NCBI GenBank assembly: GCA_027405735.1
Contig: JAPEHQ010000018.1
Location: 992,001-1,056,000, forward strand
From: Mucor racemosus
Lineage: Eukaryota; Mucoromycota; Mucoromycetes; Mucorales; Mucoraceae
Reading direction: 5' to 3'
DNA length: 64,000 nt
The position numbers and the translations under genes were made by a program. Below the pieces are notes generated by a model. The model searched no databases. It had not been told where the DNA came from and saw only the letters and a program-made list of their open reading frames with translations. Shown in pieces: positions 1,595 to 46,448 of the stretch. Every line of letters starts with the position of its first letter. Within the stretch, counting starts at the first letter, position 1.

Positions 1595-1835
1595 CTCTCC
1601 AATATCATAAACATAAACATGGCCATTACTGGAACCTATTGCCGCCTTTTTATCCTCTTTGTCCCAAGCCAATTTATCCAACGCTTTACCAGAACCAACT
1701 TAAGTACTTGCAAATGGTTCCTCGGTATTTTCATTTAAATTTCATAAATTAAATTGGATTGCTACATCAACAGTAGTATTAAATGTATCATCAGTCCGCC
1801 TTCTGATAAATGTCAATCTAAAATCAGAAATATTC
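1595..1835 (-). pseudogene. Dynein intermediate chain fragment (relic)
   Basis: The complement reads DDTFNTTVD and later LDKLAWDKEDKK, AAIGSSNGHVYVYDIGE. This fits the dynein intermediate chain WD40 segment with its WNLN.DTE.P and KALNKLAW...GxVxVYD pattern. A TAA codon replaces the residue before VGSGKAL. After the GE codon comes a GTAAGAG donor-like site, then non-coding sequence. It is one of six copies in the window, is broken, and has no start. Confidence 0.78.
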
Positions 1836-2344
1836 CATTGTCATTGTTATAAGCTATGAAAACCTTGTTGACTTTTGATAATACAGCAATTAAATAAAAA
1901 AACAAAATGATACTATTAGCATATGGTGAGCACTTAACATCTACAACCTCTGGGTCTTGTAATTTCTATCCATCAAAATGCTGCAATTTTCACTGCTGCT
2001 GCACAACAATAATGAATGTACTTTTTACCAACCTTGACCTCGATGTGCATAGGGTATCAGTTTTTTACCGGTTGTGTTTTCTCTGATTCATTAATACAGC
2101 ATTTAGTCATATTGAACGATGATTTGTAGCATTGCCAAAAAAAATGCTTCAAGAGCTTTATGCATACCAAATTATGCGATTTAATAGCAATTATTGCACT
2201 TCACTATGCTTTTTGAACCCATTAATATTAATCAAAATAATCAGTACTTTCATTCAAAAGTAAGCTTTTTTGCTTTATACATTTACATTCACCCATTCAA
2301 TAAATGACATTGCATTTATTGTCCGTTATATCAATCAATACTAC

Positions 2345-2640
2345 GGCCGACCTGTTCTGCACAAGAAATTTTTGTTGTGCCCATGTGGGCTGCACACTAT
2401 AGCCTGAGCTTTTGTGCCCACTGAATATGATTAAAAAAATAACAATATGCACATGAGCACAACAAAAGAAACTGCACACGAGCACAATGCTAAGCCTGTA
2501 TGTGCAGAATTATATATTATGTCCGTGCGCATAACACTAATCCCATGTGTGCATAATAATAAAATCTGACCATGAGCATAATGAACTCATCGTATGGGCA
2601 CAAATTAGTTTGTGCAGGAGCATCGTGTCGTTCTCAAAAT
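2345..2640. repeat. Cluster of iterated GTGCAC / GGGCACAA / GAGCATAAT motifs
   Basis: About 300 bp is built from short, loosely repeated words on both strands (TGTGCCCA, TGCACACGAGCACAA, GAGCATAATGA, GGGCACAAA), starting at CTACGGCCG. A diverged inverted counterpart lies at about 25795-26128. Shorter relatives with TGGGCATAATG and TGGGCAGAAT are at about 6850-6930, 18190-18270, 23150-23215 and 43860-43940. It could be subterminal repeats of a transposon. It is not a tandem satellite with a fixed period and I see no coding sense in it. Confidence 0.6.
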
Positions 2641-3519
2641 TTCATTGCATTTTTTACTGGAAGGGGGTTTTAAATTACATTTGTTTTTATTAATATAGAT
2701 TATAAACAATACAATTCAACAATATGTTGTTGATGTAGAGCAATATATGCAAGAGCCAATATATTTACAATTATCATCATCTGTAAATATGTTTATAGCT
2801 ATTGTTTACAGTAACAATGGTTTTTGCTCGAGCATAAACTTAAATAACACTTACTGCTTAAATGTATATGCAAGCCAAATCTATTATTATATATGTTACT
2901 TTATCAGACATAAAATTTAAACAAATTAATCTTCTTTAAACTAATTATTTTAGTTTACGATTGTCAGCTGTAAAAAGATTTGTTTTCAAGTATACAGTAG
3001 CTACGATCAAAACTATGGTTATTACACAAAACATTAGTTATTTTTTTTTTGTTTCTATATCATTTGAAATTTTATCACTTTTCTGGGACATTTTGTGGGT
3101 TTGTAGCCAGTTATAGCTTTTCATTGAATAGATATAAATATCATTGCTTTCGATTTGATCTGGTAATCAAGAAGTACGTCCAGCAATACAGTAGTAAATA
3201 ATGATATTTGATCTTAGAATGCGGTTAAATAAAAATATCGGTCTCTAATATAGCGACTGCTACCTATATTGAAAACACTAGTCCCTTATTTTAGCATGCA
3301 TAATCAGATAAAAAAAGAATACAAGCTTGATAGTCTGATATGCCATATGCCTTATCAAACGGTGAATATAACCTTGAAATATGAAAACTAAAAGAGAGAA
3401 ACAACACAAATAGAAAAGAATTTTCAAGGCTTTACATTATTTAGAGCAATTAAAACCCTGCTAAATTGCACATTTTAGCCAATGTAAAAGCAGCATTACA
3501 GCGCATCCACCCATAAACT
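2641..3519. repeat. Inter-copy repeat spacer
   Basis: AT-rich sequence between the two left dynein-fragment copies. Its inverted counterpart lies at about 24850-25800 in the right half of the palindrome. About 200 bp present here (roughly 2928-3129) is missing in the right copy, where a family C LTR sits instead. No gene is seen. Confidence 0.65.
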
Positions 3520-5123
3520 AAACAAAATACGCAATATCTGCTATCATAGAAACATACATTTTTCTACTAGAAAAACCGTCTGTCGTATCATACTTTCATT
3601 AAAAGATTGCAAACGCGAGCTGTAGAGCGACGCCGTAGTTGAGCATAGCAAGACAGCAAGATTAAACGGCTAAATCTCTTATACTATGGTATATCAGTTT
3701 TAAATATAAAGGCGTTTTTTTAACTTTTCTTATATTTAACCACGTATGGTCTGAAAATTCAGTTTTTGTAGCGGACATTTTCGGGACTCGTTTTATCCTT
3801 ACCAACACTCATGATTTTGATCAAAAAAAAGAAAAATCAATTTTTGATACCAAAATCAACGTTTAAATATATTACAATGTGAGAGAAAATTGTAGCCATG
3901 ACTAATACGCATTTTATAGAAACTTAATATTAAACTTTAAGTAATGAAAGTTTGTACTTTTGTCCCAAAAACGGTTTTTTGATTAAAGGATTTTCATGTA
4001 ATATTTTGCAATAAAAATGTTTATTATTTTTTATTGAGCAAATAGAGCGCTAAATTCTGCATATGTGTATAATTTTTATTTTTATAATTGGTAGTATAAT
4101 TAACTCTAAATTTGCAAAATCAGAAAAAAAAATTTAAAAAATGTCAAAATTGATGATCTGGACAAAAATAATTTTCTAAATTAATATTGCGCTTATAAGC
4201 CTTGTGTAAGTCTTAAAAATAAGAGATTTTATAATACCTGAAAACTTTTCCAAGAATTTATGATGCTGTAACCACTTGATTCAAGCTTATTACTGTAAAT
4301 CTTTATACATGCTAATTTTGCATGGTAGTTTATTTGATGATAATGTAGTCTTGCTTTATAATTATTGCGCTAGAAGTGATTTACATTAATTTTTTTTTTA
4401 CTCTTACCTCTCCAATATGATAAACATAAACATGGCCATCACTGGAACCTATTGCCACCTTTTTGCTGTCTGTGTCCCTACTAGCCAATTTATTTAATGC
4501 TATACCAGAACCAACTTAAGTACTTACAAATAGTTCCTCGGTATTCGCATTCAAATTCCATAAATTAAATTAACTGGTTCCATTTACAGTAGTATCAAAT
4601 GTATCATCAGCACGCCTTATAATAAATGTCAATCTAAACTTAGAAATATCCCACTGTCATTGTTATACAGTAAGCTATAAAAAGCTTGATTGTTACTAAT
4701 ACAGCAATTAAATAAAAAATGAGATTATACTAATAGCATATGGTGAGTATTTAAGATCTAAGTAAGTTTGATGAAGTATGCTTTTAAACCCTTTTAAAAA
4801 TCCTGAAGCAAACACAACGTCTTGGTCCTGTGATTTCTATCCATCAAAATGTTGCGATTCCACTACACAATGAATGCACCTTTTATCTATCTTGACCTTA
4901 ATGTACATTGTTGGGTATCAGCTTTTCACTAGTTTTATTTTCTCTAATTCATTAATATCCAGTCATTTTAAATGATGATTTGTATCACTGCCAAAAAAAA
5001 GGATGAATGCTTCAAGAGTTTTCTGCATATCAAATTATGCAATTTAGTGGCAATTATTACACTTAATTATAATTTTTGAACTTATTGATATTAATCAGAA
5101 TTATTAGTACTTTCATTCAAAAA
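3520..5123 (-). repeat. Dynein-fragment repeat, copy 2
   Basis: Direct repeat of copy 1 on the minus strand. Its non-coding 0.8 kb (about 3720-4400) matches 900-1560 nearly base for base, for example the shared block around the words GTAGCGGACATTTTCGG. The dynein relic is at about 4415-4655 on the complement and has the same in-frame TAA before VGSG plus extra damage (for example SRDTDS instead of DKEDKK). The inner end leads into the left arm of the near-identical inverted repeat. Confidence 0.8.
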
Positions 5124-7265
5124 AAGTAAGCTTTTTTGCTTTATACATTTACATTTACCCATTCAATAAATGACATTGCATTTATTATCCGTTATATCAA
5201 TCAACCGACTTTATCTTGATTCGTCGATACATTTGGAAATTAAATGCCTAAATCACACTTGAGCCACCAGGTATCGCCACAAAAAAATTTTGTACAGGTA
5301 GATGAAGCATCACAATTTGGAACATTTTTTTTGCTCATAGACCTGAGCTCTCTCACACATTCATATATTTCTGCATGAACCATAATATTTTTGTCTGTTT
5401 AATTTAACTGAAATACATTGAACTCCAACATCGTACTTGATAAAACGCCTTACTTTATTGCGAATCAACACAACTAATTTGATGATAGTCTAGCATTATC
5501 AGTTGAATCAAATGAATTCGAGATTAGATGATCCCTTTTAATTGTTTTGCATATCATGAGCTAATAATGGACCGTTATTAAAGATACAGTACTACACTGC
5601 TACTAATAAAGTATGATGAGTTAACCCTAATGGACGAATAAGTCGATTAGCAGTATAGCGTATAAAAAAAATATTAAAATCGCATAAATATAGAAATTAA
5701 ATAAGAAAGAGATTATAAACCATGTAAATTAGTATAATTGAGTTGTTTCAAGCGTTTTGAGCTGAATACGCCTTTACTTTTGGCCTCCTATAAAAATTGA
5801 TTTATTAGTAGTAAAGTTAATTAACAAACTAATAAGTAATGATTATGATGTACTTTTGATAGTTGGTAGTGGTATACAAAGCAACATTTTGTTTTCCTCT
5901 TCTTGGTTAGCTATTGCTTGGCCACTAAATAGAAACAAATACTTTTTAGAAACTAAATAAATTAACATGAGTTTATTCATTCATTCAAATCAAGTAAATA
6001 GTATACATACTTTTATAATCACCAATTTTTTAGCAGGTAAATATCAAATTTAGAGCAAAAAACCATTGATTATAACGAAGATAATGGGAAGAAATGACTA
6101 AGTCTTGGATGCTTTTTTTTTTCGAAAAAAAAATAATATTATAACGCGCCCTTCTTAACATTAATAGTTAATAATTTATTTCCAAATAAATAATAGGAAA
6201 AACATGTAATTGTATCTGCTGCTTGATTTCAGTTTATAAAAGATATTGGTCTTTTTATTGTAGTTTTAAATATAAAGAAAAGCGCTGAGGAAAGAGTGGG
6301 GAAGAAAACAGAAAAATAATCCTAAATCAGTCGATTTTGCGTGTTACAAACAGGAATTTACAAAGGCATAAATACTTTTAGTGTTGCCAAACAGGTTGTT
6401 GTCGTTGTTCCCATTTGGTCCCCGAAAGAAGAACATGGGAAGAACTCTCTCAAAGCCCAAATTTCAAATTGACATATCTCGTCAATAAGGCAATTTTGTC
6501 GAATCAGAGTAACTCACATCTGTGTTATGTCAATACTCATCCTAGGTCTCACATCCAAGGTCACAATCTATAATTAGTGTTACAGTAAATCAATGTGGAT
6601 CATTGACTTACATCATATTCTTAGATAGTACTGTAAAACCCTAGTAATAGTTATAATTAATGTATATAAATACATCCAAAGGATGAATTGTTAATAAAAG
6701 TGTAATATTCTGGCAAGATTATTTATATAGACTCTTTTGACATTTCAATCTGCTTTAAACCATTCAAATTATACTTGTTATAAATTATATTATGATTGAT
6801 ATACTTAAGTAAATTGATTAAAAAACTTTGATTTCATTGCTCTTCTCATCTGGGCTACCTGATGTGCACAAATTTTTTTTATTCTGCCCATCTGCGTAGA
6901 TCATTATGCCCATGGGAAGCATAGTTCGGTCGTAGTTATATTTCAAATATAAACAACATAGATACTGCACAGAAAAATTATCTATTGATCGAGCTATTGC
7001 CAAACCTTTTAGCTGCATTTTTCGGGGAGAAAACGAGATTTTTGTTAATTTTTTTTCAAATTCAATCAGTATTTGGGATGAGGGTATATAAGGGGAAAAT
7101 TGAGGCTAGAAACGAAGGTATCTCTTTGGACACATTTTTGAGGATATCTCCACGAAAAATCAATATTTTAGAAAAAATTAAATTGGATCCGAGAGAGCTC
7201 AATGAGATTGATGACATGAATATAAAAAAAATGCTGCTCAATTTAACCAATATTTTTAAATCTAC
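5124..7265. repeat. Left arm of near-identical inverted repeat
   Basis: This 2.1 kb reappears in reverse complement at about 17858-19998. Matching positions add up to 25123 at 6818-7265 and to 25122 at 5161. The one offset I could locate is an A-run of nine bases near 6125 against eight on the other side. Stretches I compared base by base were otherwise identical. The 66-residue ORF on the complement of 6818-7018 is the same in both arms. Outside these limits identity drops: the outer side has an indel near 5120, and the inner side changes from about 7265 on. Confidence 0.88.
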
Positions 7266-7800
7266 TACAGAAATACCAAAAAAATCAAAAGAAAATAAAA
7301 GTGCTCAGAAGTTTTTTATATTCCAATATGTTATAGAGATCTTTAAAACAAGTAAGTTTTATTACTAAAAAGTGTTCGCATAGCTTAATTTTTTGTAGAG
7401 ATATGAAGCCTCAAAGTTTCTAGTTTTATCAGCGAAATATGCGTAAAAATCTGAAACATTAGCACTTAAAAAGTTATACCAACTGCAAAAAGTAGGATAT
7501 TTTAGGAAACTTGTTTTTGGATTAAATTTGAGCATCTCAGGTACATTAGTATATAACTTTATCTTGGTATTTAGTGAAAAAAAAAGTAGGGCAGGGATGA
7601 AAAGTGAGACCCAGTTTTTAAGAAAAAAGCGGTGAATTTTACGTGTTTTTGAGTTTTTCGTGAGATATAAAATAAATTTAGAAATAGGTAACATAATGCG
7701 ACCGACTGATATATATTTAAAACTTCCTAAGGAATATCCTGAAAAGTGTTTTGTATGAGGTACATGAGTCGAGATTGGTTAATAAAAAAGAGGGGCACGC
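6800..7800 (-). repeat. R2 repeat unit, copy 1
   Basis: Unit shared in opposite orientation with 17400-18300 and with about 27541-29070 and 54005-55210. It holds a 127-codon frame on the + strand (6985-7368) and an overlapping 109-codon frame on the complement (7365-7694). Related frames elsewhere in the window are broken by stops or shifts, so coding capacity is doubtful. One end carries a GCGTGCCCTCTTTT-like word (complement of about 7780-7800). No family was recognised. Confidence 0.65.
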
Positions 7801-9288
7801 TCTAGATAGCATTGGTGTCGAGCCGGGTTTTGCCAGCTAACAGCCAAATTTATTAGCATAAACTGGGCTTGACAGCATGCCTTGCACTCTATAATTTTAA
7901 AGGTTGAAAATTATGAATATTCAATTTCTTTTGAAAACCCAAATTTTGCTTGAGCAGGCACCTACAAAAAAAACCAGAATCAATTTTTATTTATGGAGTG
8001 TATCAGAGCATTAATAAAGTTCGGCAATTATAGAGTGTAACAAAACCAAACAAGATGTAATTCTATAAAGTGAATATAATAATTTTTTTATTGATTGATT
8101 AGAAAGAAACTAATTAAATATCATGGAATGTAATTGCTTAGTTTCTAAAATAAAAAAATACAAAAAACTGTTTTTTTTTTATTATTAGAAAATGTTTCGT
8201 AAAGGAACAAGTTCAATGACAAAGGCTTAATTTCAGCATATCATAGCATTAAAGACTATATTATCCACAGTATTTCCACTTTAGATTCAGAAAAAACAAG
8301 TAAAGTTTGGGATGAAATGAAAATAAAATTTAGGATGAAATGAAAATGTGATTTAGAGATGATGAGAAGTGGATTGGGATAAGATTAAGTTAGTATGAAG
8401 TATTATTTCAAAGAGTTAATATAATTGAACTTACCTGTATTAATCTGAACTCCCAAAGAAGAAACCGTGTTTGTTACAGCAATTGTAATAAACTTTACAT
8501 TATTTTTTTTAGAAGCATCGGTATTCAAGCGAGAGATGCAGAGTATACAATACTAATGTTTTAGACATTTGCATCACCTTGACCTGTAAGATAAGCAGAA
8601 TACTGTCTAAAAAGTCAGTCTTGAACTAGCTAAAAATCATACACCTTCGTCTGTTAACTGTAATGAAAAAAATATATCAGTGATAAATAATTATATTAGT
8701 GCGAGAAATCACTTACAGGTTCATAAAGTATTCCACAGACAAGCCCCTTAAACATGCGAATTAATCATGCTTAGTTTAGAACAAGTTGGCATAATACCAT
8801 TCAAATGCGCCAGCCTTGAGGGAAAACAAACCATGTAAGTCTTGAAGATACCATTTTAAAGCAAGAGAGACACCAAACCAATATCAATGAAACAAAGTAT
8901 CAAAGATAATAATAGGCTTAAAAAACTCTAATCCAATGAGCAATAGGAGGGGATGGGGAAACCTTTAAATCTTGAGTACATAGGACTATCTTAAAGAAAA
9001 ACGGTAAATAATAAAATGCTAAAATAAACTATGGCATATAATAACTACCCTCCATTTTTAAATAGAAAAAAGCTATGTCTTTGAAGGCTAAAATAATCCT
9101 TTAAAAATTACTGCTTCAATGTGTCGCCATTGCTATTGGCGGAACACCTTTATTCCTCAAAATCTAATCTTGGTTTACACTAAAATAAGGTTCACAAAGA
9201 GTAATTAAAGATAGCGCGCATACATACAGTGTTTTGCCGCCCTTTAACACTTCTCTCTTTTCTTTGCTATAAACAAAAATTCGAGATT
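7801..9288. other. Gene-poor stretch with a fold-back element and possible minus-strand exon relics
   Basis: It contains the 59-bp fold-back at 7816-7874. On the complement of about 8455-8545 a coding-looking stretch reads NTVSSLGVQINTG followed by a GTAAGTTC-like donor, and the complement of about 8800-8880 reads LKWYLQDLHGLF. These may be relics or short exons of an unrecognised minus-strand gene; stops interrupt any longer frame. The last 50 bp before 9289 are the pyrimidine-rich leader of the sideroflexin gene. Confidence 0.4.
7816..7874. repeat. Small fold-back (TGTCGAGCC ends)
   Basis: Begins TGTCGAGCCGGG and ends CTGGGCTTGACA, so the ends are imperfect inverted repeats of about 11 bp. 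The related element at 29263-29314 is in the opposite orientation and shares TTTTGCCAGC and CCAAATTTA inside. It may be a tiny MITE, or two transposon ends brought together by an internal deletion. Confidence 0.5.
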
Positions 9289-10549: not shown

Positions 10550-10921
10550 ATTGTAACACAATAAAAGACGTTGTACATCTTGTGTAATCCTAATAAAACG
10601 AAATTTTAAATGATTTTTTTCTTTTAAAATATATATTTATTATAAAATGTACGTAAAACAGCCATGTACATATGCACAAATATAAAGAATATATTACGAA
10701 TAATAGACATATAAAGATAATGTACATCCATTTAGATGTTTATACATATACAACACTCATTTATTAGGGTTCAATATCCGAATGCTTGTCTAAGCTCCAC
10801 GTTGCCATTACACCCCATTTATTTTTATATAATCACAAGGAAATGAGAAAAACTCTAATAAATAAGAAAAACTCGAAAGATCTACCTGATAACCCTTCTT
10901 CCTTTCTTGCACATACACAAA
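10550..10921. other. Intergenic, 3' region of sideroflexin gene and promoter of aminotransferase gene
   Basis: AT-rich sequence with AATAAAAG soon after the sideroflexin stop, a plausible polyadenylation region, and a pyrimidine-rich tract just before the next ATG. No other gene is seen. Confidence 0.5.
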
Positions 10922-13775: not shown

Positions 13776-13819
<44 letters not shown>

Positions 13820-14410: not shown

Positions 14411-14447
<37 letters not shown>

Positions 14448-17399: not shown

Positions 17400-18300
17400 C
17401 TAAATAGATACAAGTTGATCTTATTATGCTACCTGCTCCTGAAATTATTTATATCCCATGAAAGACTCAAAGGCGGGTAAAATTCACTGCTTTTTTCCTT
17501 GGAAACTGGGTCTCACTTTTCACCCCTGCTCTACTTTTTTCCCAACTAAATAACACAAAGAAAAAATAATATACAAATGTACCTAAGATGTTCAAATTTA
17601 ATCCAACAACAAGTATCCAAAAATATCCTACTTTTTGCAGTTGGTATAACTTTTTAAGTGCTAATGTTTCAGATTTTTACGCAATTTTCGCTGCTAAAAT
17701 TAGAAACTTTGAGGCTTCACATCTCTACAAAAAATTAAGCTATGCGAACACTTTTTAGTGATAAAACTTACTTGTTTTGAAGAGCTCTATAACATATTGG
17801 AATATAAAAAAATTCTGAGCACTTTTATTTTCTTTTGATTTTTTTGGTATTTTTGTAGTAGATTTAAAAATATTGGTTAAATTGAGCAGCATTTTTTTTA
17901 TATTCATGTCATCAATCTCATTGAGCTCTCTCGGATCCAATTTAATTTTTTCTAAAATATTGATTTTTCGTGGAGATATCCTCAAAAATGTGTCCAAAGA
18001 GATACCTTCGTTTCTAGCCTCAATTTTCCCCTTATATACCCTCATCCCAAATACTGATTGAATTTGAAAAAAAATTAACAAAAATCTCGTTTTCTCCCCG
18101 AAAAATGCAGCTAAAAGGTTTGGCAATAGCTCGATCAATAGATAATTTTTCTGTGCAGTATCTATGTTGTTTATATTTGAAATATAACTACGACCGAACT
18201 ATGCTTCCCATGGGCATAATGATCTACGCAGATGGGCAGAATAAAAAAAATTTGTGCACATCAGGTAGCCCAGATGAGAAGAGCAATGAAATCAAAGTTT
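17400..18300 (+). repeat. R2 repeat unit, copy 2
   Basis: Inverted counterpart of 6800-7800. Between 17400 and about 17858 it is clearly diverged (several substitutions; the 109-codon frame seen on the left is broken here). From 17858 outward it becomes identical to the left arm. The 127-codon frame on the complement (17755-18138) differs at four residues, all in its last third. Confidence 0.65.
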
Positions 18301-19998
18301 TTTAATCAATTTACTTAAGTATATCAATCATAATATAATTTATAACAAGTATAATTTGAATGGTTTAAAGCAGATTGAAATGTCAAAAGAGTCTATATAA
18401 ATAATCTTGCCAGAATATTACACTTTTATTAACAATTCATCCTTTGGATGTATTTATATACATTAATTATAACTATTACTAGGGTTTTACAGTACTATCT
18501 AAGAATATGATGTAAGTCAATGATCCACATTGATTTACTGTAACACTAATTATAGATTGTGACCTTGGATGTGAGACCTAGGATGAGTATTGACATAACA
18601 CAGATGTGAGTTACTCTGATTCGACAAAATTGCCTTATTGACGAGATATGTCAATTTGAAATTTGGGCTTTGAGAGAGTTCTTCCCATGTTCTTCTTTCG
18701 GGGACCAAATGGGAACAACGACAACAACCTGTTTGGCAACACTAAAAGTATTTATGCCTTTGTAAATTCCTGTTTGTAACACGCAAAATCGACTGATTTA
18801 GGATTATTTTTCTGTTTTCTTCCCCACTCTTTCCTCAGCGCTTTTCTTTATATTTAAAACTACAATAAAAAGACCAATATCTTTTATAAACTGAAATCAA
18901 GCAGCAGATACAATTACATGTTTTTCCTATTATTTATTTGGAAATAAATTATTAACTATTAATGTTAAGAAGGGCGCGTTATAATATTATTTTTTTTCGA
19001 AAAAAAAAAGCATCCAAGACTTAGTCATTTCTTCCCATTATCTTCGTTATAATCAATGGTTTTTTGCTCTAAATTTGATATTTACCTGCTAAAAAATTGG
19101 TGATTATAAAAGTATGTATACTATTTACTTGATTTGAATGAATGAATAAACTCATGTTAATTTATTTAGTTTCTAAAAAGTATTTGTTTCTATTTAGTGG
19201 CCAAGCAATAGCTAACCAAGAAGAGGAAAACAAAATGTTGCTTTGTATACCACTACCAACTATCAAAAGTACATCATAATCATTACTTATTAGTTTGTTA
19301 ATTAACTTTACTACTAATAAATCAATTTTTATAGGAGGCCAAAAGTAAAGGCGTATTCAGCTCAAAACGCTTGAAACAACTCAATTATACTAATTTACAT
19401 GGTTTATAATCTCTTTCTTATTTAATTTCTATATTTATGCGATTTTAATATTTTTTTTATACGCTATACTGCTAATCGACTTATTCGTCCATTAGGGTTA
19501 ACTCATCATACTTTATTAGTAGCAGTGTAGTACTGTATCTTTAATAACGGTCCATTATTAGCTCATGATATGCAAAACAATTAAAAGGGATCATCTAATC
19601 TCGAATTCATTTGATTCAACTGATAATGCTAGACTATCATCAAATTAGTTGTGTTGATTCGCAATAAAGTAAGGCGTTTTATCAAGTACGATGTTGGAGT
19701 TCAATGTATTTCAGTTAAATTAAACAGACAAAAATATTATGGTTCATGCAGAAATATATGAATGTGTGAGAGAGCTCAGGTCTATGAGCAAAAAAAATGT
19801 TCCAAATTGTGATGCTTCATCTACCTGTACAAAATTTTTTTGTGGCGATACCTGGTGGCTCAAGTGTGATTTAGGCATTTAATTTCCAAATGTATCGACG
19901 AATCAAGATAAAGTCGGTTGATTGATATAACGGATAATAAATGCAATGTCATTTATTGAATGGGTAAATGTAAATGTATAAAGCAAAAAAGCTTACTT
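17858..19998. repeat. Right arm of near-identical inverted repeat
   Basis: Reverse complement of 5124-7265 with one visible homopolymer length difference. Outside 19998 the sequence resembles copy 1 of the dynein repeat (about 2230) more than copy 2 (about 5110), so the junction is mosaic. This suggests gene conversion or rearrangement rather than one simple duplication. Confidence 0.88.
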
Positions 19999-20439
19999 TT
20001 GAATGAAAGTACTGATTATTTTGATTAACATTAATAGGTTCAAAAAGCATAGTTAAGTGCAATAATTGCTATTAAATCGCATAATATGGTATGCAGAAAG
20101 CTCTCGAAGCATTTTTTTTGGCAATGCTACAAATCATCGTTCAATATGACTAAATGCTGTATTAATGAATCAGAGAAAACACAACCGGTAAAAACTGATA
20201 CCCTATGCACATCGAGGTCAATATTGGTAAAAAGTATATTCATTATTGTTGTGCAGCAGCAGTGGAAATTGCAGCATTTTGATGGATAGAAATTACAAGA
20301 CCCAGAGGTTGTAAATGTTAAGTGCTCACCATATGCTAATACAGTAGTATCATCTTGTTTTTTATTTAATTGCTGTATTATCAAAAGTCAACAAGGTTTT
20401 CATAGCTTATAACAATGACAATGGAATATTTCTGATTTT

Positions 20440-20668
20440 AGATTGACATTTATCAGAAGGCGGACTGATGATACATTTAATACTACTGTTGATGTAACAA
20501 TTCAATTTAATTTATGGAATTTGAATGAAAATACCGAGGAACCATTTGTAAGTAATTAGGTTGGTTCTAGTAAAGTGTTGAATAAATTGGCTTGGGACAA
20601 AGAGGATAAAAAGGCGGCAATAGGTTCCAGTGATGGCCATGTTTATGTTTATGATATTGGAGAGGTAA
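20440..20668 (+). pseudogene. Dynein intermediate chain fragment (relic)
   Basis: Best-preserved copy of the captured WD40 piece. FNLWNLNENTEEPF is followed by VSN, a stop (TAG), then VGSSKVLNKLAWDKEDKK and so on up to GE, where a GTAAGAG donor-like sequence begins. It has no start codon and no further dynein exons, so it is not functional. Confidence 0.8.
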
Positions 20669-21479
20669 GAGTAAAAAAAAATTAATGTAAATCACCTCTA
20701 GCGCAATAATTATAAAGTAAGACTACATTATCATCAAATAAACTACCACACAAAGTTAACATGTATAAAGATTTACAGTAATAAGCTTGAATCAAGTGGT
20801 TACAGCATCATAAATTCTTGAAAAAGTTTTCAAGTATTATAAAATCTCTTATTTTTAAGACTTACAAAGCTTATAAGCGGAATATTAATTTAGAAAATTA
20901 TTTTTGTCCAGATCATCAATTTTGACATTTTTTAATTTTTTTTTTCTGATTTTGCAAATTTAGAGTTAATTATACTACCAATTATAAAAATAAAAATTAT
21001 ATACATATGCAGAATTTAGCGCTCTATTTGCTCAATAAAAAATAATAAACATTTTTATTGCAAAATATTACATGAAAATCTTTTAATCAAAAAACCGTTT
21101 TTGGGACAAAAGTACAAACTTTCATTACTTAAAAGTTAATATTAAGCTTTTATAAAATGCGTATTAGTCATGGCTACAATTTGCTCTCACAATGTAGTAT
21201 ATTTAAACGTTGATTTTGGTATCAAAAATTAATTTTTCTTTTTTTTGATCAAAATCATGAGTATTGGTAAGGATAAAACGAGTCCCGAAAATATCCGCTA
21301 CAAAAACTGAATTTTCAGACCGCACATGGTTAAATATAAGAAAAATAAAAAAAAGCGCATTTTCATTTAAAGCTTAGATATACACCATAGTATAAGAGAC
21401 TTACAGTAGCTGTCCGATCGTGTTCTGCTCAATTATGGCGTCGCTCTACAGGCTCCCTTTTGTAACCTTTTAGTGAATG

Positions 21480-21871
21480 TGATATATCAGAAGTTTACCC
21501 AGATGTAGAAATCCAGGAACAACTATTGAAATCCAACATGGCATGGCATTTAGTAACTCGTACTAAATGTCATACATAACCACTAGCATTAACAGCGACT
21601 ATCAGGAACATTCAGGAACAATTCGTAGCAATGAAACATAAGCAACCCTACATCTTATTCAAATAATACAATCACAGATTCCCAATCCCACAAATTCCAT
21701 TGTATATGATTTGTTCCCAAATCATATCAAGTACCTCAATACCCGGCAATTCATTAATAATATTAATAATTATATAACCATTTAGAAAACATATAAATAC
21801 GAAGCATCAATGAATTAATAAAATATATCTTTTAGCAGAGTATTTTTATATTAGTATCTTTTGATATAACA
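21480..21871 (-). mobile_element. Solo LTR, family B (392 bp)
   Basis: On the complement it begins TGTTATATCAAAAG and ends CTTCTGATATATCA. On the + strand the left flank is GAATG and the right flank is GATG followed by TATTATATG. The uninterrupted site in copy 4 (about 24711) reads GAATGTATGATATG, so the target duplication was probably GAATG with one base since lost. A second copy is at 48329-48719 in the same orientation. Confidence 0.78.
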
Positions 21872-22089
21872 GATGTATTATATGACAGACGGTTTTCTAG
21901 AAGAAAAAAGTTTGTTTCTATGATAGCAGATATTGCCTATTATTTTGTTTAGTTTATGGGTGGATGCGCTGTAATGCTGCTTTTACATTGGCTGAAATGT
22001 GCAATTTAGCAGGGTTTTAATTGCGCTAAAAAATGTAAAGCCTTGAAAGTCCTTTTCTACGTGCGTTGTTTCACTCTTTTTGTTTTCAT

Positions 22090-22618
22090 TGTCGTATATT
22101 TTCAGGATTGATAAATAGTATTTAAAAAAAAATACAATTATAAAAGAATGAGTAATTAATCAGTTTTTCAACTGTATAATAAAAACAAGATATCGTTTAT
22201 TTAGATATAAAAGTATGGCCTTTTATATTGATTTGACATTGAGATCCTGAGATGTAATTTAAGGCACTAATGAACCATTGGATCTGTTTGATAGTAATCT
22301 ATGGATTGAAATGGATCAATCATAATTTAACCGTTCTTGCAGAGCTTGTGAATCACCTTGTTTTAATGCTGCGCTAAATATGCTTGGATGTTGATTTGAT
22401 AGCTACTTGATTGTTTAACTGCTGGGATGAAATAATGTGGTGTCATAATTGAGGTCCAAGCGTTCTTGGTAATTACTGGATTAAACATGGTACGCTAGGA
22501 GTTTTTTATATCCGATATCAAGACTTGCACTTCGATACGTGTCGTAGTCAATAGATTGTAAGATGTATTGATACTGTAGAAGGTGATAATGTATGATACT
22601 AGTAGGTGGAATACAACA
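22090..22618 (-). mobile_element. LTR, family C, complete copy (529 bp)
   Basis: Read on the complement it starts TGTTGTATTCCACC and ends TATATACGACA, the same 529 bp as the copy at 24945-25473. It is joined directly to a truncated inverted copy (22619-23001), making a palindrome. Confidence 0.78.
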
Positions 22619-23001: not shown

Positions 23002-23790
23002 TAACCTACTGTCTGTCACGAAAATCATCGCCAAAGTGAACCTATTTAGCTTACCGGGGCGCTTTTTATGGAAAACAATTTAAATATGATCTTTATGGAT
23101 ACTAGTCAAAGTAAGCTGCCATTCTACATAATAGACATACATATGCACTACTACGGCCGCACTATCCTTCCCATGGGCATAATGGTCTCCACCGATGGGC
23201 AGAATACAAACATTTGTAAATTCCAGTTTGTAACATGCAAAATTGACTGATCTAGGATTATTTCCTGTTTTCTTCCCCACTCTTTCCTCAGCTCTTTTAT
23301 TTATGATTAGAACTACAACAAAAAGATCAATATTTTTTATAAACTGAAATTAAGTAGCAGGTGCAAGTACATGTTTTTCCTATTGTTTATTTAGAAATAA
23401 ATTATTAACTGTTAATTTTAGGGCATGTTATAATATTTTTCTTGAACAAAAAAAGTATCCAAGAATTGGTCATTTTGTTCCATCATCTACGTTATAATTA
23501 ACGCATTTTTGGTCTAAATTCGATATCTACCTGCAGAAAAATTGGGTATTATAAAAGTATATATAGTATTCGCTTGATTTGAATGAATGAATAAACTTAT
23601 GTTAATCTATTTAGTTTCTAAAAAATATTTGTTTCTATTTAGTGGCCAACAACAGCCAAGGAAAGGAAAACGAGATGTTGACTTGTATACCACTACCAAC
23701 TCTCAAAGGTACACCATAATTATTACTTGTTAGCTTGTTATTAATAAGTGATTTTACTAATAAATCAATTTTTATAGCTCAAAAGTAAGT
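23002..23790 (+). repeat. Repeat segment related to 5800-6930 and 43070-43960
   Basis: After about 90 bp of unmatched sequence (23002-23090), 23145-23790 matches, with many differences, the repeat arms at 18190-19330. It contains the ACGGCCG...TGGGCATAATG word cluster. No intact frame of note. Confidence 0.6.
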
Positions 23791-24850
23791 TTGTTCTGGT
23801 AAAGAATTGAATAAATTGGCTTCAGACAAAGAGGATAAAAAGGTGGCAATAGGTTCCAGCGATGGCCATGTTTTATGTTTATAATACTGGAGAAATAAGA
23901 GTAAAAAAAATTAATGTAAATCACCTCTACTAGCGCATTAATTATAAAGTAAGACTATATTATTATCAAATAAACTACCACACGAAATTAACATGTATAA
24001 ATATTTACAGTAATAAGTTTGAATTAAGTAGGTATAGCATTGTAAATTCTTGAAAAAGTTCTCCAGTATTATAAAATCTCTTATTTTTAAGACTTACAAA
24101 GCTTATAAGCGGAATATTAATTTAGAAAATTATTTTTGTCCAGATCATCAATTTTGACATTTTTTAACTTTTTTTTTCTGGTTTTGCAAATTTGGAGTTA
24201 ATTATACTACCAATTATAAAAATCAAAAATATACACATATACAGAGTTTAACGCTCTGTTTGCTCAATAAAAAATAATAAACATTTTTATTGCAAAATAT
24301 TACATGAAAATACTTTAATCAAAAAACCGTTTTTGGGCCAAAAGTACAAATTTTTATTACTTAATATTTAATATTAAGCTTTTATAAAATGTGTATTAGT
24401 TATGGCTACAATTTTCTCTCACAATGTAGTATATTTAAACGTTGATTTTGCTATCAAAATTTGATTTTTCTGATTTTTGATCAAAATCATGAGTGTTGGT
24501 AAGGATAGAATGAGCCCCGAAAATGTCCGCTACAAAGTCTGAATTTTCAGACCGTAAATGGTTAAATATACGAAAAATCATAAAAAAAAACGCATTTTCA
24601 TTTAAAGCTTAGATATATACCATAGTATAAGAGACTTAGCCGTTCGATCGTGTTATGCTCAATTATGGCGTCGCTCTACGAGCTCGCTTTTGCAATTTTT
24701 TAATGAATGTATGATATGACAGACAGTTTTTCTAGTAGAAAAATGTATGTTTCTATGATAGCAGATATTGCGTATTTTGTTCAGTTTATGGGTTGATGCG
24801 CTGTAATGATGTTGCTTTCACACTGCCTGATACTTTTATTTATAATTAAC
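23791..24850 (+). repeat. Dynein-fragment repeat, copy 4
   Basis: Only the second half of the dynein piece is present (about 23803-23893: LNKLAS then KEDKKVAIGSSDGH). An extra T in the run after CATG shifts the frame. It joins directly to the 23145-23790 segment through GCTCAAAAGTAAG, and copy 5 has the same joint. The 0.8-kb non-coding tail follows. Confidence 0.75.
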
Positions 24851-24944
24851 TGCATTCTAAGATCAAATAGCATTATTTACTACTGTATTGTTGGACGTAT
24901 TTCTTTATTACCAGATCAAATCGAAGGCAATGATATTTATATCT

Positions 24945-25473
24945 TGTTGTATTCCACCTACTAGTATCATACATTATCACCTTCTACAGTATCAACACAT
25001 CTTACAATCTATTGACTACGACATGTATTGAAGTGCAAGTCTTGATATCGGATATAAGAAACTCCTAGCGTACCACGTTTAATCCAGTAATTACCAAGAA
25101 CGCTTGGACCTCAATTATGACACCACATTATTTCATCCCAGCAGTTAACCAATCAAGTAGTTATCAAATCAACATCCAAGCATATTTAGCGCAGCATTGA
25201 AACAACACAACTCACAAGCTCTGCAAGAACAGCTAAATTATGATTGATCCATTTCAATCCATAGATTACTATCAAACAAATCCAATGGTTCAATAGTGCC
25301 TTAAATTACATCTCAGGATCTCAATGTCAAATCAATATAAAAGGCCATACTTTTACATCTAAATAAACGATATCTTGTTTTTATTATACAGTTGAAGAAC
25401 TGATTAATTACTCATTCTTTTATAATTGTATTCTTTTTTAAGTACTATTTATCAAGCCTGAAAATATACGACA
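24945..25473 (+). mobile_element. Solo LTR, family C, complete copy (529 bp)
   Basis: TGTTGTATTCC...ATACGACA. The flanks TATCT and ATTTG do not match. Compared with the left half of the palindrome, about 200 bp (equivalent to 2928-3129) is missing exactly at this LTR. This is expected if two LTRs in different sites recombined and removed the DNA between them. Confidence 0.75.
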
Positions 25474-25794
25474 ATTTGTTTAAATTTTATGTGTGATAAG
25501 TAACATGGTAACATCTTTAATCTTAGATCTGGCTTGCATATAATAGATTTAAGCAGTAAGTGTTATTTAATTTTATTCTCGAGCAAAAACCGTTGTTGCT
25601 GTAAACACTATAGCTATAATAAACGTATTTACAAATGATGATGATAATCGTAAATATATTGGCTCTTGCATGTATTACTCTACATCAGCAACGTATTGAA
25701 TTGTATTATCGTCTATAATCTATATTAATAAAAGCAAATGTAATTTAAAAACTCATTATTCCAGTAAAAAATGAAATGGAATTTCGAGAACGGC

Positions 25795-26130
25795 ATGATT
25801 CTTATGTACAACAAACCAACTTGTGCGCATACGATCAGCTCATTATGCTCATGGTCAGATTTTATTATTATGCAGAAATAGGGATAATGATATGCTTATA
25901 GGCAATTCTACTATTATATACACATGGGATTAGTTTCATGCACACGGACAGAATATATAATTCTACACATACAGGCTTTTCGTTATGCTCGTGTGCAGTT
26001 TCTTTTGTTGTGCCCATGTGCATCTTCTTATCTGTTTAGCCATTATTCAGTGAGCGCAACAACTCATCAGGCCATAGTGTGCAGCCCACCTGGGCACAAC
26101 AAAATCATCGCGTGCAGCACAGGTCGGCTG
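25795..26130. repeat. Motif cluster, right counterpart of 2345-2640
   Basis: Inverted, diverged copy of the GTGCAC/GGGCACAA word cluster (GTGTGCAGTTTC, TTGTTGTGCCCATGTG, GGGCACAACAAAATC). It ends at the TA where the 1.2-kb transposon inserted. Confidence 0.6.
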
Positions 26131-26132
26131 TA

Positions 26133-27365
26133 CAGTCGTGATTCGATTTAGTGGACTCGTAATTAACGGATTTTCGATTTAATGGACAGTTTGAAATCGC
26201 CCGTTTTTTTTTCATAATTTTACTGCATAAATCCACTGAATCGATTCAGTGGATAGTGAACAATTTCGTTTCTACCAGTCCACTATATTAGTAAAATATA
26301 AATACTATTGGATAAAACTGTATTTAGCCGGTAATAGCTTGATCTGGTAGCCATGAAATTAGAAGAAATATGGAGAATCACCAAATCATGTGCCTAATTT
26401 ACCTCAGTTTTTTATTAAATTTCTTGTTATCCACTGTTTAATTCAGCTGCTCGAATATAAAAAGCCTTTATTAACAATATTATTTAATACTATAAACTAG
26501 TAACGCCTTTTTATTCTCATTTCTTGATCCAATATTACGGAAAACGGTTTATTAGATTTAGTGAACAATTCGATTTGCAGTGGCATTACATACTAAAAAC
26601 GCTTGATAAAAATAAAACAACCTAAATTTCAAGTGTCGCTCATAAAATATGATGCCACTTGAAATGTGAACAACGATAATAAACAAACGCTTCAATTGAA
26701 CACAATAACAAACGCATGCTAAAAATATGAAATACCCTTTTTGAACCATACATGTCGTGTATGTAGATGATAGCACCCTTGATCACGGCGCAATCAATTA
26801 CACAAATGACATATATATCAAAACAGGATTCTATCCAAATCAATAATGATAATAAACAAAGATATCAATTTAGTCAACTACTCATCTATATCGTAGTTGC
26901 ACTATCAATATAAATAAGATTCAAGCATATAAAAACTACCCCTTAAAAATCAAGGTTACATAAAATAGATATAACAGAAATAAACAAAAACAACCATTTC
27001 CCAAAAGGTCGATATTGTCACACTTGACATACAATCCCTTATGGTCAATGCTCTATACAATTTACCCCTTAAAATATCAAATCAATAACAATGTACTCAA
27101 AACTGGAAGATTACTAAATATACATCCATTCAAGTCTGATGGTATCCAAGTTCTCCAAATCACTATAAATACCCTCATACTTTTCAATTATTTTAACTCT
27201 TGAGAAATCTTTTGTAATAAAAACTTTAGCTGATTATAATTGTATTTCTACTGCTTTTATTTTTTATATTTTTTTTTATTTTAGTAAATAACATCGTAAT
27301 TTACTGCACGATTTATTGGACACTTTTCTCCCTCCCAACGATTCCACTAAATCGAACCACGACTG
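26133..27365. mobile_element. Non-autonomous TA-flanked DNA transposon (Tc1/mariner-pogo type)
   Basis: The 1233-bp element has CAGTCGTG...CACGACTG ends. The terminal inverted repeats are about 28 bp (26133-26160 against 27338-27365) with two mismatches. A TA dinucleotide flanks each side (26131-26132 and 27366-27367). Inside each end is a related word, CGATTTA(A/T)TGGACA. TA duplication and CAGT ends are typical of the Tc1/mariner superfamily, especially pogo/Fot1. No transposase frame is present (the longest frames are under 75 codons), so it would depend on an enzyme encoded elsewhere. Confidence 0.85.
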
Positions 27366-34870: not shown

Positions 34871-34908
<38 letters not shown>

Positions 34909-42129: not shown

Positions 42130-43060
42130 GATACTAATTCATTAAAAAATTGCAAAAGCGAGCCCGTAGAGCGACGCCATAATTGAGCATAACACGATCG
42201 AACAGTTAAGTCTCTTATACTATGGTATATATCTAAGATTTAAATGAAAATGCGTTTTTTTTTATGATTTTTCGTATATTTAACCATGTACGGTCTGAAA
42301 ATTCAGACTTTGTAGCGGACATTTTCGGGGCTCATTTCATCCTTACCAACACTCATGATTTTGATCAAAAATCAGAAAAATCAAATTTTGATACCAAAAT
42401 CAACGTTTAAATACACTACATTGTGAGAGAAAATTGTAGCTATAACTAATACGCATTCTATAAAAGCTTAATATTAAATATTAAGTAATGAAACTTTGTA
42501 CTTTTGCCCCAAAAACGGTTTTTTGATTAAAGGATTTTCATGTAATATTTTGCAATAAAAATGTTTGCTATTTTTGATTGAACAAATAGAGCGCTAAATT
42601 CTCTGTAGTTATGTATTTTTTGTTTTTATAATTGGTGGTATAATTAACTCTAGATTTGCAAAATCAGAAAAAAAAATTAAAAAATGTCAAAATTGATGAT
42701 CTGGACAAGAATAATTTTGAAATTAATATTCCGCTTATAAGCCTTGTAAGTCTTAAAAATAAGAGATTTTATAATACTTGAGAACTTTTTCAAGAATTTA
42801 CAATGCTGCACCCACTTGATTCAAGCTTATTACTGTAAATCTTTATACATGCTAATATTGTGTGGTAGTTTATTTGATGATAATATAGCCTTATTCTATA
42901 ATTATTGAGCTAGAGGTAATTTACATTAGGTTTTAGTCTTACCTCTCCAATATTATAGACATAAACATGGCCATCGCTGGAACCTATTGCCACCTTTTTA
43001 TCCTCTTTGTCGCAAGCTAATTTCTTCAATGCTTTACCAGAACAAACTTACTTTTGACCT
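42130..43060 (-). repeat. Dynein-fragment repeat, copy 5
   Basis: Minus-strand copy. The complement of about 42946-43046 reads KKLACDKEDKKVAIGSSDG then HVYVYNIGE. As in copy 4, the first half of the dynein piece is absent and the fragment joins the neighbouring repeat segment through a GTCAAAAGTAAG joint. The 0.8-kb non-coding part includes the perfect palindrome GTCTGAAAATTCAGAC near 42293. Confidence 0.77.
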
Positions 43061-43960
43061 ATGAAAATTAATTTATTAGTAAAATCAATTATTAATAACA
43101 AGCTAATTAGTAATAATTATGGCGTACCTTTGAGAGTTGGTAGTGGTATACAAGTCAACATTTCGTTTCCTCTCCTTGGCTGTTTTTTGCCACTAAATAA
43201 AAACAAATATTTTTAGAAACTAAATAGGTTGACATAAGTTTATTTATTTATTCAAATCAAATGAATACTACACATACTTTTATAATCACTAATTTTTCAG
43301 CAGGTAGATATCAATTTTAGACCAAAAAAGCATTGATTATAATGAAGATGATGGAACAAAACGACTAAGTCTTGGTTGCTGTGTTTGTTCGAGAAAAATA
43401 TTATAACGAGCCCTAAAATTTACAGTTAATAATTTATTTCCAAATTAACAATAGGAAAAACATGTAATTGCACCTGGTACTTGATTTCAGTTTATAAAAA
43501 AATATTAGTCTTTTTGTTGTAGTTTTAAACATAAATAAAAGAGCTGAGGAAAGAGTAGGGAAGAAAAAAGACTTTGTGTGTTACAAACAGGAATTGACAA
43601 AGGCATAAATACTTTTCGTGTCACCAAACAGGTTGTTGTTGTTGTTTCCAATTGGTCTCCGAAAGAAGAAGAACATGGGCAGAACTCTTTCAAACCCTAA
43701 ATTTCAAATTGATATATCTCGTCAATAAGGCAATTTTGTTAAATCAGAGTAACTCACATCTGCTTTAAACTGTTCAAATTATCTTCGCTATTAATTATAT
43801 TATGATTGATATACTTTAATAAATTGACTAAAAAACCTTGATCTCATTGCTCTGCTCATCTGATCTGCATAAAATTTTTTATTCTGCCCATCTATACAGA
43901 TCACTATGCCCACGGTGGGAAGCATATTTCAGCCGTAGTAAAATAGATGGTATCTCGTTT
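43061..43960 (-). repeat. Repeat segment related to the inverted-repeat arms
   Basis: Diverged copy of about 5800-6930: same order of words (TGGTAGTGGTATACAAG, ACATGTAATTG, AGAGCTGAGGAAAGAGT) and the TCTGCCCATC...CCCACGG cluster at 43880-43920. It lies beside dynein copy 5 as 23145-23790 lies beside copy 4, so the two make one compound repeat. Confidence 0.65.
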
Positions 43961-44740
43961 AAGTCCGTCAAATAAATAAATACGCTTATACATAGTAGGT
44001 TTTGACAAGTGTTGTAATGTATGATACTTTTTATTTATTCTATACCATATCAACAACCAGATGCAGGGTCGACACCGGCTGTGCTTGAACTGATATAAAA
44101 ATTTAGCTTCTTCATTGAATTAGGCCCACCACTGTCGTTAGTAATAACATAATATGACGTACTATATATGGTCTTAATAATGTTAAGTTAATTAAATCAA
44201 TTATCCTGGGTACAGAACTACTCCAAATTTTTTGGTTTTTAAATTTTGGTTGATGAATTTGAGAAAAATGCTGCTAATTATTGCATTGAAAATAAAATTT
44301 CGGAATAAAATTCGTTATTGAAAAAGAGCTTTTATGTATAAAAGTAAACAAAGGGTGAGTTAGATGTGATTTCTATCTCTGTGAACTTCTTCCTCATACC
44401 TTTCTAGAAGCTAATAAAAAAAGGCACCTGACACATATTCGCATGTTTAAATTAAGATAATTGAACTATAAAATCTGAATGAACAGAGATATTGGAATTG
44501 CCTTTTTCATAAAGATGACAATTATTATTGTACATTACAATTTTATAAAAGTACTGAGAAAATTATTCTTGAAAAATAATATGAAAATATGTAGTCCGCA
44601 AAATGGTAAAAAAGTACAGCATATCATATGCATTTGTCATGTTAATTATAATAATGCAATGAGACAAATACAGTTATAAGTTAAAAGACAACGGTTATTA
44701 AGTTTGACATTTAAGAAGATCTAATATTTATACTATTATT
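43961..44740. other. AT-rich, no gene recognised
   Basis: Short frames only. GGTCGACACCGGC near 44070 recalls the TGTCGAGCC fold-back ends but is not an inverted repeat here. Confidence 0.4.
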
Positions 44741-44822
44741 ATTGTGTAACAAAAGTGTTAGAACCTCTACGACACATTAATGAAAAAGGAAAAAAATTGC
44801 TAGACATGCAAAGCTTACTGAG

Positions 44823-44997
44823 AAAAAAAGGAGGATCATATTCGATGAGAAGCAAGGTCATCGGAGATTCTCTTTCGAAATTCATATCAATCCTGATGCC
44901 AAAGGTCTTCCCCTTTGGCGGGTTTGAACTCACAAATACGTATGCCGCACTCAATTTACAACGCATGCGTTACCCATTGAGCTAGACACTCTCCTAA
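44823..44997 (-). ncRNA. tRNA-like Pol III unit (possible SINE head or decayed tRNA)
   Basis: On the complement an A-box TAGCTCAATGGG (44973-44984) and a B-box-like GAGTTCAAACC (44921-44931) are about 41 bp apart, the spacing of tRNA genes. Between them TTGTAAA could be a tyrosine-type anticodon loop. The stems do not close properly: the T-arm and acceptor arms do not pair, so it is not a working tRNA. Directly after it is a strong hairpin GCCAAAGG/CCTTTGGC (44898-44919), and T7 (44823-44829) would terminate Pol III. A tRNA-derived SINE or a pseudo-tRNA is the likely reading. Confidence 0.5.
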
Positions 44998-45440
44998 GGT
45001 CTACAATTTTAATTCCCGTACTTGTGAACGTGTATTTGTCAGTTTTTTTTAATATTTTGAAGAATTTAGCAAATTAAAGTGTATTATTTCTTCTTGGAAA
45101 TGATAGTAGAGCTTCCAGAAATTGGTAGCAGACATCATCTGGAAAAAATGCCTATTTTTCATGCAGATATAAGCAAAATTCAATGTTAATACCTTAATAT
45201 TAAACTGCATAACACAAAAATTGAATATGGATGAATGTAAAGCAATATTTGCCAAAATGGGAGTTAGTATAATAACATGAGCTACAACGCACAGAAACTC
45301 AAGTGATATTCAACAGATGCGGCTGCATTGGAAAATTCAGTTTTTAGGCGTAGAAACACCTAGAATTATACTGGAAAACCAAAGTACGCATTATTCATCA
45401 AACTAAAGACAGACACCAACTTTCGAATCCACCAGTGTTA
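44998..45440. other. AT-rich, no gene recognised
   Basis: No supported frame or repeat was noticed between the tRNA-like unit and dynein copy 6. Confidence 0.4.
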
Positions 45441-45833
45441 AATGCAGATATCAATTATAAGATCTCTACCAATGCAAAATAGTAATATGATACACTGTAT
45501 GAATCCATCAGTTTGACAATTATAATCAATGGTAATAATAATAATAATGATAATAAATAGGATGACGTTTTTAAAGTAACAACGGGAGAAAATACAACTG
45601 ATAAAAAACTGATACCCACTGTATATCAAGGTCAAGATTGATAAAAAAAGGTACTTTCATTGTGTGGTAAACATCGCGACATTTTGATGGATAGAAATTA
45701 CAGGACCAAGGTGTTATGTTTGCTTCAGGATTTTCAAAAGGGTTCAAAAGCATTCTTCATTAAACTCAACTAGATGTTGAATGCTCACCATATGCGATTA
45801 GTATCATTTTGTCTTTTATTTAATTGCTGTATT

Positions 45834-46153
45834 TGTAGCAAACTACATACACCAAGTTTGTTTAGTAATCAAATTGATCTTAGTCGACATCTAAGATCTA
45901 ATAACTTTAAATCGCAAAAACCTTAAAATGTCAAATTGTACCACTGGTACTTCCAAACTAGGAACTAAACCATGAAGATCTTGCTTCAAGATCTTATTAC
46001 TACTGTATTCTCAATAGGATTAGAAAATAGTATATATATCGCAAAGGCTATAATAATCCATAAACCTTTGCTTTACTTTATATCTTAATAAATATCAAAG
46101 AGTTATAATTGTATTCGCAATGCTTTTTTTGTTTAATTACTATTTTTGTAGCA
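45834..46153 (+). mobile_element. Solo LTR, family D (320 bp)
   Basis: Begins TGTAGCAAACTAC, ends TTTTTGTAGCA, and is flanked by the exact 5-bp repeat GTATT (45829-45833 and 46154-46158). The empty site is visible in dynein copy 3 at about 20372 (GCTGTATTATC). A second copy is at 52372-52692. Confidence 0.9.
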
Positions 46154-46234
46154 GTATTATTAAAAATCAAGCTTTTCATAGCCTATAACAGTGACGATGG
46201 GATGTTTCTGATTTCAGATTGGCGGCATTTATTA

Positions 46235-46448
46235 TAATAAGTCGGACTGATGATACATTTGATAAAACTGTTGATGGAACAAGTCAATTTAATTTATGGA
46301 ATTTGAATAGCAATACCGAGAAACCATTTTAAGTACGTAAGTTAGTTCTGGTAAAGGATTGAATGAATTAGCTTGGGTCAAAGAGGATAAAAAGGTGGCA
46401 GTAAGTTCCAGCGATGGCCATGTTTATGTTTATAATATTGGAGAGGAG
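46235..46448 (+). pseudogene. Dynein intermediate chain fragment (relic)
   Basis: The copy closest to the family consensus in the first half (VDGTSQFNLWNLN). It has a TAA in place of the residue after ST and further substitutions. It ends at GE, followed by a duplicated GAGGTAAGA donor-like site. Confidence 0.78.

Follow-up and report, generated by a model that had tools for sequence, protein, structure and literature searches.

The DNA analysed here, a stretch of 64,000 nucleotides from Mucor racemosus (contig 18, positions 992001-1056000; hereafter the window) in a genome of 53.2 Mb and 54 contigs, holds six copies of a dispersed repeat with a WD40 piece of the cytoplasmic dynein intermediate chain (DIC). 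The original prediction, made from the sequence alone, had named six such copies, and tblastn with the exons of the intact gene as query gave matches at all six places. Chance similarity was rejected, with the piece matching DYNC1I2 at E 5e-8, the parental exon matching it at 1e-31, and a profile built from the upstream regions of 40 copies finding the parental exon at 8e-56, with no other significant match in that 10-kb locus; three designed proteins outscored DYNC1I2 for the piece, only via summed tandem copies of a generic motif. The piece derives from the 3' end of a single intact host gene, is repeated far more than a thousand times in the genome, and was probably captured by a non-autonomous DNA transposon.

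Copy 1 (1-2338, minus strand) is cut on one side by the window edge, and its upstream (5') part is cut at the right terminus of copy 2; its DIC fragment (1595-1774) carries TAA at a Gln codon and a second stop at a Trp codon, and its non-coding part (824-1575) corresponds to the 3' flank of the parental gene at 85% identity. Copy 2 (2340-6937, minus strand) is bounded by an inverted terminus on either side, the left one at 6936 and the right one at 2340, and has a DIC fragment at 4408-4590 with TAA and a non-coding part at 3655-4387 (86% to the parental flank). The left terminus of copy 3 (18186-22089, plus strand) lies at 18187, and its right part is broken by a 389-bp repeat (21483-21871) and stops at a repeat of about 530 bp from 22090; here the DIC fragment (20485-20664) has TAG and the non-coding part lies at 20684-21354 (87%). 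Copy 4 (23149-26134, plus strand; left terminus 23150, right end near 26132 with the terminus altered) has an internal deletion that leaves just the 3' portion of its DIC fragment (23771-23893, tblastn match 23771-23881, TAA), followed by the non-coding part at 23913-24668 (84%). Copy 5 (42137-43940, minus strand; left terminus 43939, right terminus not located) is internally deleted in the same way, with its DIC fragment at 42943-43047, TAA directly upstream of VCSGK, and its non-coding part at 42177-42927 (86%). Copy 6 (44775-47273, plus strand), for which no termini were located, is a variant with a different 5' half, a DIC fragment at 46240-46445 with TAA and one frameshift, and a non-coding part at 46464-47135 (88%).

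The common end GE|GTAAGAG proposed for the fragment was found only in part, the exact string GAGGTAAGAG being present in three of the six copies and the GT being gone from the 23.8-kb copy (GGAGAAATAAGAG); over all fetched copies, with the parent and partial rows counted, GT follows the GE codon in 41 of 49 alignment rows. The 0.8 kb of shared non-coding DNA predicted 3' of the piece is there in every window copy (about 672-757 nt, 84-88% identical to the parental flank). The in-frame stop expected at one codon in the four copies with both halves was confirmed, and in fact all six copies have a stop there, TAA in five and TAG in the 20.5-kb copy; for the 23.8- and 42.9-kb copies, in which the sequence just upstream is not DIC, the reading frame was taken from the downstream part.

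We found one DIC gene in the genome, at C4:384517-387693 (L009, within L019), with open WD40 exons and with N-terminal exons upstream as in-frame pieces. Its 228-residue upstream exon region matches this place only (one match, six candidates scored), and a second DIC gene was rejected on that basis. The protein is 95% identical to the Mucor velutinosus cluster and at most 90% identical to other Mucorales. The shared part of the repeat, rightly described before as non-coding and common to the copies, adjoins this gene directly on the 3' side and is the gene's own flank, which lies about 0.2 kb after the stop codon and downstream of an AATAAA. In coordinates that start at the GE codon, parent and copies align in two blocks, the first from about -183 or -274 to +27 and the second from +360 to about +1100; the roughly 0.34 kb between them (the remainder of the last intron, together with the last exon and 3' untranslated region) is absent from all copies examined except one. 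The edges of this gap lie in 12-base near-repeats, CAATGTAAATCA and CAATATAAATCA, identical at 11 of 12 bases. The exception, L045 (C9), still has the last intron and last exon as well as the flank, with the exon-to-flank order of the gene. Only 61-89 codons of the protein of about 640 residues are held in the copies, and the alignment indicates that the repeat core is a genomic piece of the DIC 3' end minus these 0.34 kb. No RNA family or structured RNA was found in the flank at E <= 0.5 (fold z -0.88).

The number of copies is very high. One 20-mer of the flank occurs exactly 1,642 times in the genome (855 forward, 787 reverse) against 0 for the reversed control, so that the count of the repeat core is far above chance, and a 59-residue DIC piece used as query matched at all 150 scored places (the best 150 of 1,310 candidates). 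Since the 20-mer was found in 29 of 40 fetched copies selected without using it, the 1,642 exact hits suggest about 2,200 copies genome-wide, an order of magnitude only, as the 40 copies are not random. Furthermore, each of six loci fetched via the flank 20-mer alone, all from the start of contig 1, contains a DIC fragment. Repeat-type pieces also occur in other deposited contigs of 534-1,339 bases (P0121, P0127, P0128, P0130 and probably P0126); the repeats are therefore no artefact of this assembly.

The repeat has defined ends. Among the copies compared with L021, eight places (L023, L024, L025, L034, L037 and three places in the window) begin at the same base on the left, corresponding to position 93-96 of L021, with the left end sequence CACTACGGCCGAACTATGC, and the right ends share one terminus, ...GCACAGGTCGGCCGTAGTG or near variants, the two forming inverted termini of 12 bp, CACTACGGCCGA...TCGGCCGTAGTG. 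In the best full-length copy, L046 (C2:972909-976966), both termini are present 4,058 bp apart, and the DIC fragment (2116-2326) and flank (2315-3114) lie between them, the termini being at 100 and 4157; the internally deleted window copies 4 and 5 and copy 6 with its other 5' half are variants. Exact termini number 151 on the left and 408 on the right in the genome. Of the 23 right ends listed on contig 1 as far as 2.99 Mb, 13 have the flank 20-mer at a distance of 1.7-3.0 kb on their upstream side, oriented as expected. Given the detection rate of 29/40, this is near the number to be expected were almost every right end part of a DIC copy. Transduplication is recognised by a parental gene elsewhere in the genome, a piece of it between inverted termini (here in L046 and window copy 2) and dispersed copies in number, all of which we observe; a target-site duplication, a further mark of it, was seen at none of the six paired ends. 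The capture of a host gene by a repeat, as originally proposed, is thus upheld by one intact parent, by copies with the gene's 3' end only and by full-length copies bounded by inverted termini.

For the history of the piece we aligned 48 copies with the parent; these were mostly drawn from the list of best DIC matches, and well-conserved fragments are over-represented and inverted pairs counted twice. Near-identical mates and partials were dropped from the codon-position test (12 of 42 main-family rows), and 3 rows were dropped from the combined tree and 5 for the two part trees. The combined tree has 46 rows and a star-like shape; the parent and six basal copies fall outside a main family. 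Codon 30 of the aligned stretch, CAA (Gln) in the parent, is TAA in 30 of the 48 copies, TAG in one and a sense codon in 15, with two giving no call. Within the 42 main-family rows there are 31 stops, 9 sense codons and 2 without a call, and the six basal copies are all sense (CAA in four, CAC, AAA). Two CAA copies, L007 and L034, fall inside the main family with weak support, which possibly reflects either loss and regain of C at this codon or CAA surviving at the base.

Relative to their own majority, 30 of the 42 main rows carry 172/1,817, 164/1,820 and 162/1,815 substitutions at codon positions 1, 2 and 3 (per-site rates 0.095, 0.090 and 0.089; chi-square p 0.83), and because substitutions are even over the codon positions we conclude that the captured piece decays neutrally in the copies; in 11 of 36 rows its length is not divisible by three. 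The difference between the basal copies and the living gene has another shape. The majority of the six differs from the gene at 0, 0 and 18 sites at positions 1, 2 and 3 of 61 codons, all 61 residues being identical. The four longer basal copies alone give 0, 0 and 16 from -183 to 0, and 2, 0 and 5 from -276 to -184, where the two first-position differences sit at the very edge; their majority translated with no support limit differs in a few residues. Between the main-family and basal majorities there are 6, 1 and 4 differences by codon position, the stop included. Because the six basal copies have a sense codon and a majority protein-identical to today's gene, the piece appears to have been alive when captured, and dead before the main burst. 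The earlier claim that the fragment was dead before it multiplied therefore stands for the main family (31/42 stops, flat codon positions) but not for the basal copies. Inactivation resembling repeat-induced point mutation (RIP) was rejected, as there is no CpA bias: C-to-T rates on the two strands are 0.097/0.117 at CpG, 0.054/0.049 at CpA, 0.072/0.021 at CpC and 0.067/0.075 at CpT. A DIC origin is not supported for the upstream part of the main family, where three pairwise tests against the gene further upstream gave unconvincing scores (50 against a shuffle mean of 38 and maximum of 61; 44 vs 44; 53 vs 40, maximum 52) and the profile had no further match.

We consider it likely that this is a case of transduplication. 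In this view, a non-autonomous DNA transposon bounded by 12-bp inverted termini would have taken a genomic piece of about 1 kb from the 3' end of the sole DIC gene, made up of the 3' portion of a WD40 exon, some 26 bases from the start of the last intron and about 0.75 kb of DNA downstream of the gene, and the 0.34 kb that include the last exon would have been deleted between the two near-repeats. The exon would have been intact at capture, CAA changing to TAA later, in the lineage that founded the main family of more than 1,000 copies. The copies would then have decayed neutrally, the exon having no role in them and doing nothing for dynein. Defined ends, dispersal and internal-deletion forms, and not target duplications, lead us to infer transposition as the mode of spread, presumably by a transposase encoded elsewhere and acting in trans.

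Several observations weigh against this account. No target-site duplication of at least 3 bases was seen at the six copies with both termini, a weak test given flanks that are often rearranged or repetitive. A transposase was not found, stop-to-stop frames being short in the parts of the element looked at. An element without the captured piece was not found either, none of 40 scored matches (3,204 candidates) spanning joined flanks; a 2.47-kb derivative, L054, has the flank and no DIC. Moreover, L045, which lacks the deletion, stands next to the main family in the combined tree (support 1.0), nested among basal copies that have the deletion, and in the DIC-only and flank-only trees it falls with the basal copies; the deletion may have occurred twice, or the tree may be misleading. 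Finally, 40 of 664 sites separate the parental flank from the basal majority, against 18 of 61 third positions in the adjoining exon, a change about five times faster (p 1.3e-7), both being about 75% A+T. The contrast could be explained by a slowly changing flank at the gene, by gene conversion from the copies or by a history in which the flank came first.

The last of these would reverse the roles, the flank being an older mobile repeat beside the DIC gene that carried the neighbouring exon along by transduction, with the gene as passenger. We regard this as unlikely. In its favour, the parental flank looks younger or converted by copies, as just described, the flank-only tree groups the parent like one more basal copy, and in L020, L022, L036 and L038, four of the six basal copies, the exon is preceded by a directly oriented piece of the repeat box found downstream in the parent, a piece that in three of these copies occurs again after the exon. 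Against it stand the DIC fragments in all six loci fetched by the flank 20-mer, the gene's exon-to-flank order in the undeleted L045, and the fact that among the flank copies seen the only DIC-free one is the deletion derivative L054. A retroposed copy of the DIC transcript, later amplified, would account for copies that start inside an exon and have no last intron; with the first intron bases kept (GT in 41/49 rows), a deletion that lies off the splice sites and takes the last exon as well, and a flank from about 0.2 kb past the stop codon and beyond the AATAAA, we find this most improbable. Hardly more plausible is function or selection in some of the stop-free copies: 34 of 150 scored DIC matches (the best 150 of 1,310 candidates, parent included) are stop-free in the matched stretch, but the even substitutions over codon positions, the rows out of multiples of three (11/36) and the span of 61-89 codons out of about 640 speak against it.

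Under transduplication, too, the flank rather than the exon might have driven the element's success through a function of its own (replication, transcription or transposase binding) that is constrained at the living gene, with the exon as hitchhiker, an idea that we rate as improbable. The notion that the flank is conserved within copies as well was rejected as mostly an effect of base composition: rates at A/T sites are alike (exon 0.043/0.028, flank 0.042/0.036), those at G sites nearly so, and those at C sites 0.154 vs 0.086; columns 150-300, in the middle of the flank, have still lower rates.

As to the class of the element, its termini start with CACTA (CACTACGGCCGA), and no 3-bp target-site duplication was found at the six end pairs, for which reason we do not file it as CACTA (EnSpm/CMC). 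Possible subterminal short repeats, with the motifs TGTGC/GCACA and GGGCA, were noticed by eye near both ends. Membership of hAT was rejected, with an 8-bp target-site duplication in none of the six end pairs. So was membership of Helitrons, for which we used the absence of terminal inverted repeats, 5' TC and 3' CTRR: the termini here are inverted repeats and the right end reads GTAGTG, GTAATG or GTAGTA.

Genome-wide, all 17 pairs of neighbouring copies that lie within 25 kb of each other and have equal match scores are inverted, 10 of them among the DIC matches and 7 among the matches to the joined flanks. In one inverted pair the arms are 99.97% identical over 3,249 bases, 760 of them beyond the element end; the flanks agree for 30 bases in two more pairs and for only 8-9 in a fourth. 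Recent segmental duplication in inverted orientation, or else strong gene conversion, would fit this picture, and an assembly artefact is also possible. The inverted arms in the window (1013-7571 and 17552-21246) both keep an open frame of 147 residues (6925-7368 and 17755-18198), which had no Pfam match. Four stop-free DIC copies of equal score (C20:5014, C49:5455, C6:2843434, C24:229073), three lying 5-9 kb away from the end of a contig, are perhaps one subtelomeric block.

Other repeats lie among the copies. The 389-bp repeat inserted in copy 3 recurs at 48331-48719 with 97% identity, and the repeat of about 530 bp (TGTTGTATTCC...TATACGACA; 22090-22618 and 24945-25475) turns up within or next to many copies, in many cases with an incomplete inverted copy after it. 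Downstream of the flank (L020, 700-1450 from the GE codon; L022, L032, L045) there is an array of diverged boxes resembling TCTCGCTACGCTCAATTACGGCGTCGCC, and the motif is also scattered in the window. A repeat of about 403 bp (26576-26981) is probably a younger family than the DIC element, since it is 91-98% identical in eight other fetched loci. On the minus strand at 50271-51599, an open frame of 442 residues has a DDE_Tnp_4 domain (E 1.1e-8), unlinked to the element termini.

Gene capture by Helitrons has reportedly occurred in Pleurotus and other fungi, and the Mucor element resembles it in carrying host gene pieces at the DNA level and in a short palindrome near its right end; Helitrons, to our knowledge, have no mutually inverted terminal repeats, whereas the ends of the Mucor element are inverted repeats of each other. 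Plant Pack-type elements with terminal inverted repeats (TIRs), such as Pack-MULE and Pack-CACTA, are non-autonomous and hold a captured genomic gene piece between the TIRs, as does the Mucor element, but they carry many different pieces in few copies each, where Mucor has one piece in more than 1,000. Transposable elements are reported to make up 5-37% of Mucor genomes (PMC7011435); Helitrons are reported as numerous in Mucor, and Mucorales to contain Tc1/mariner, EnSpm, hAT and Helitron elements (PMC7928374).

The nearest fungal parallels concern histone H3. One paper, which also discusses Pack-type elements, describes transduplication of H3 by a hAT transposon in Pseudocercospora fijiensis, with 784 H3-like copies in 471 elements and the original gene under purifying selection (PMC6710886). 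There, as here, a housekeeping gene fragment sits in a TIR DNA transposon as dead copies (hundreds there) and the original gene is intact. By that account a spliced transcript was captured in P. fijiensis, and the element has 8-bp duplications and a hAT domain; in Mucor it is genomic DNA with an intron start and 3' flank, with no duplication seen and no transposase found. The P. fijiensis copies were killed by RIP (CpA to TpA) while those of Mucor have no CpA bias, and the 784 copies there compare with more than 1,600 here. An H3-like transduplication in Pyrenophora tritici-repentis, described by its authors as the first fungal example (PMC3538342), is similar in that the TIRs of a DNA transposon enclose the captured gene, and differs in its tens of near-identical, possibly active whole-gene copies and in the hAT transposase of its long form. 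In the one open-access library searched we found no capture of dynein and no case of gene capture by a transposon in Mucoromycota.

The kind of event described here is already known in fungi; the finding extends very high-copy gene capture by a transposon to Mucorales, an early-diverging fungal group. Its three layers (a living gene, basal copies with a sense codon and a main family with a stop codon) would reveal the order of events, in which the piece was captured intact, then died and then was amplified. The dead copies may moreover be seen as a fossil of an older synonymous state of the gene, which has since undergone 18 third-position changes and no amino-acid change. The fungal group to which Mucor belongs has active RNA interference, and more than 1,000 sense and inverted copies of the 3' end of an essential gene make an effect of small RNAs on the living gene directly testable.

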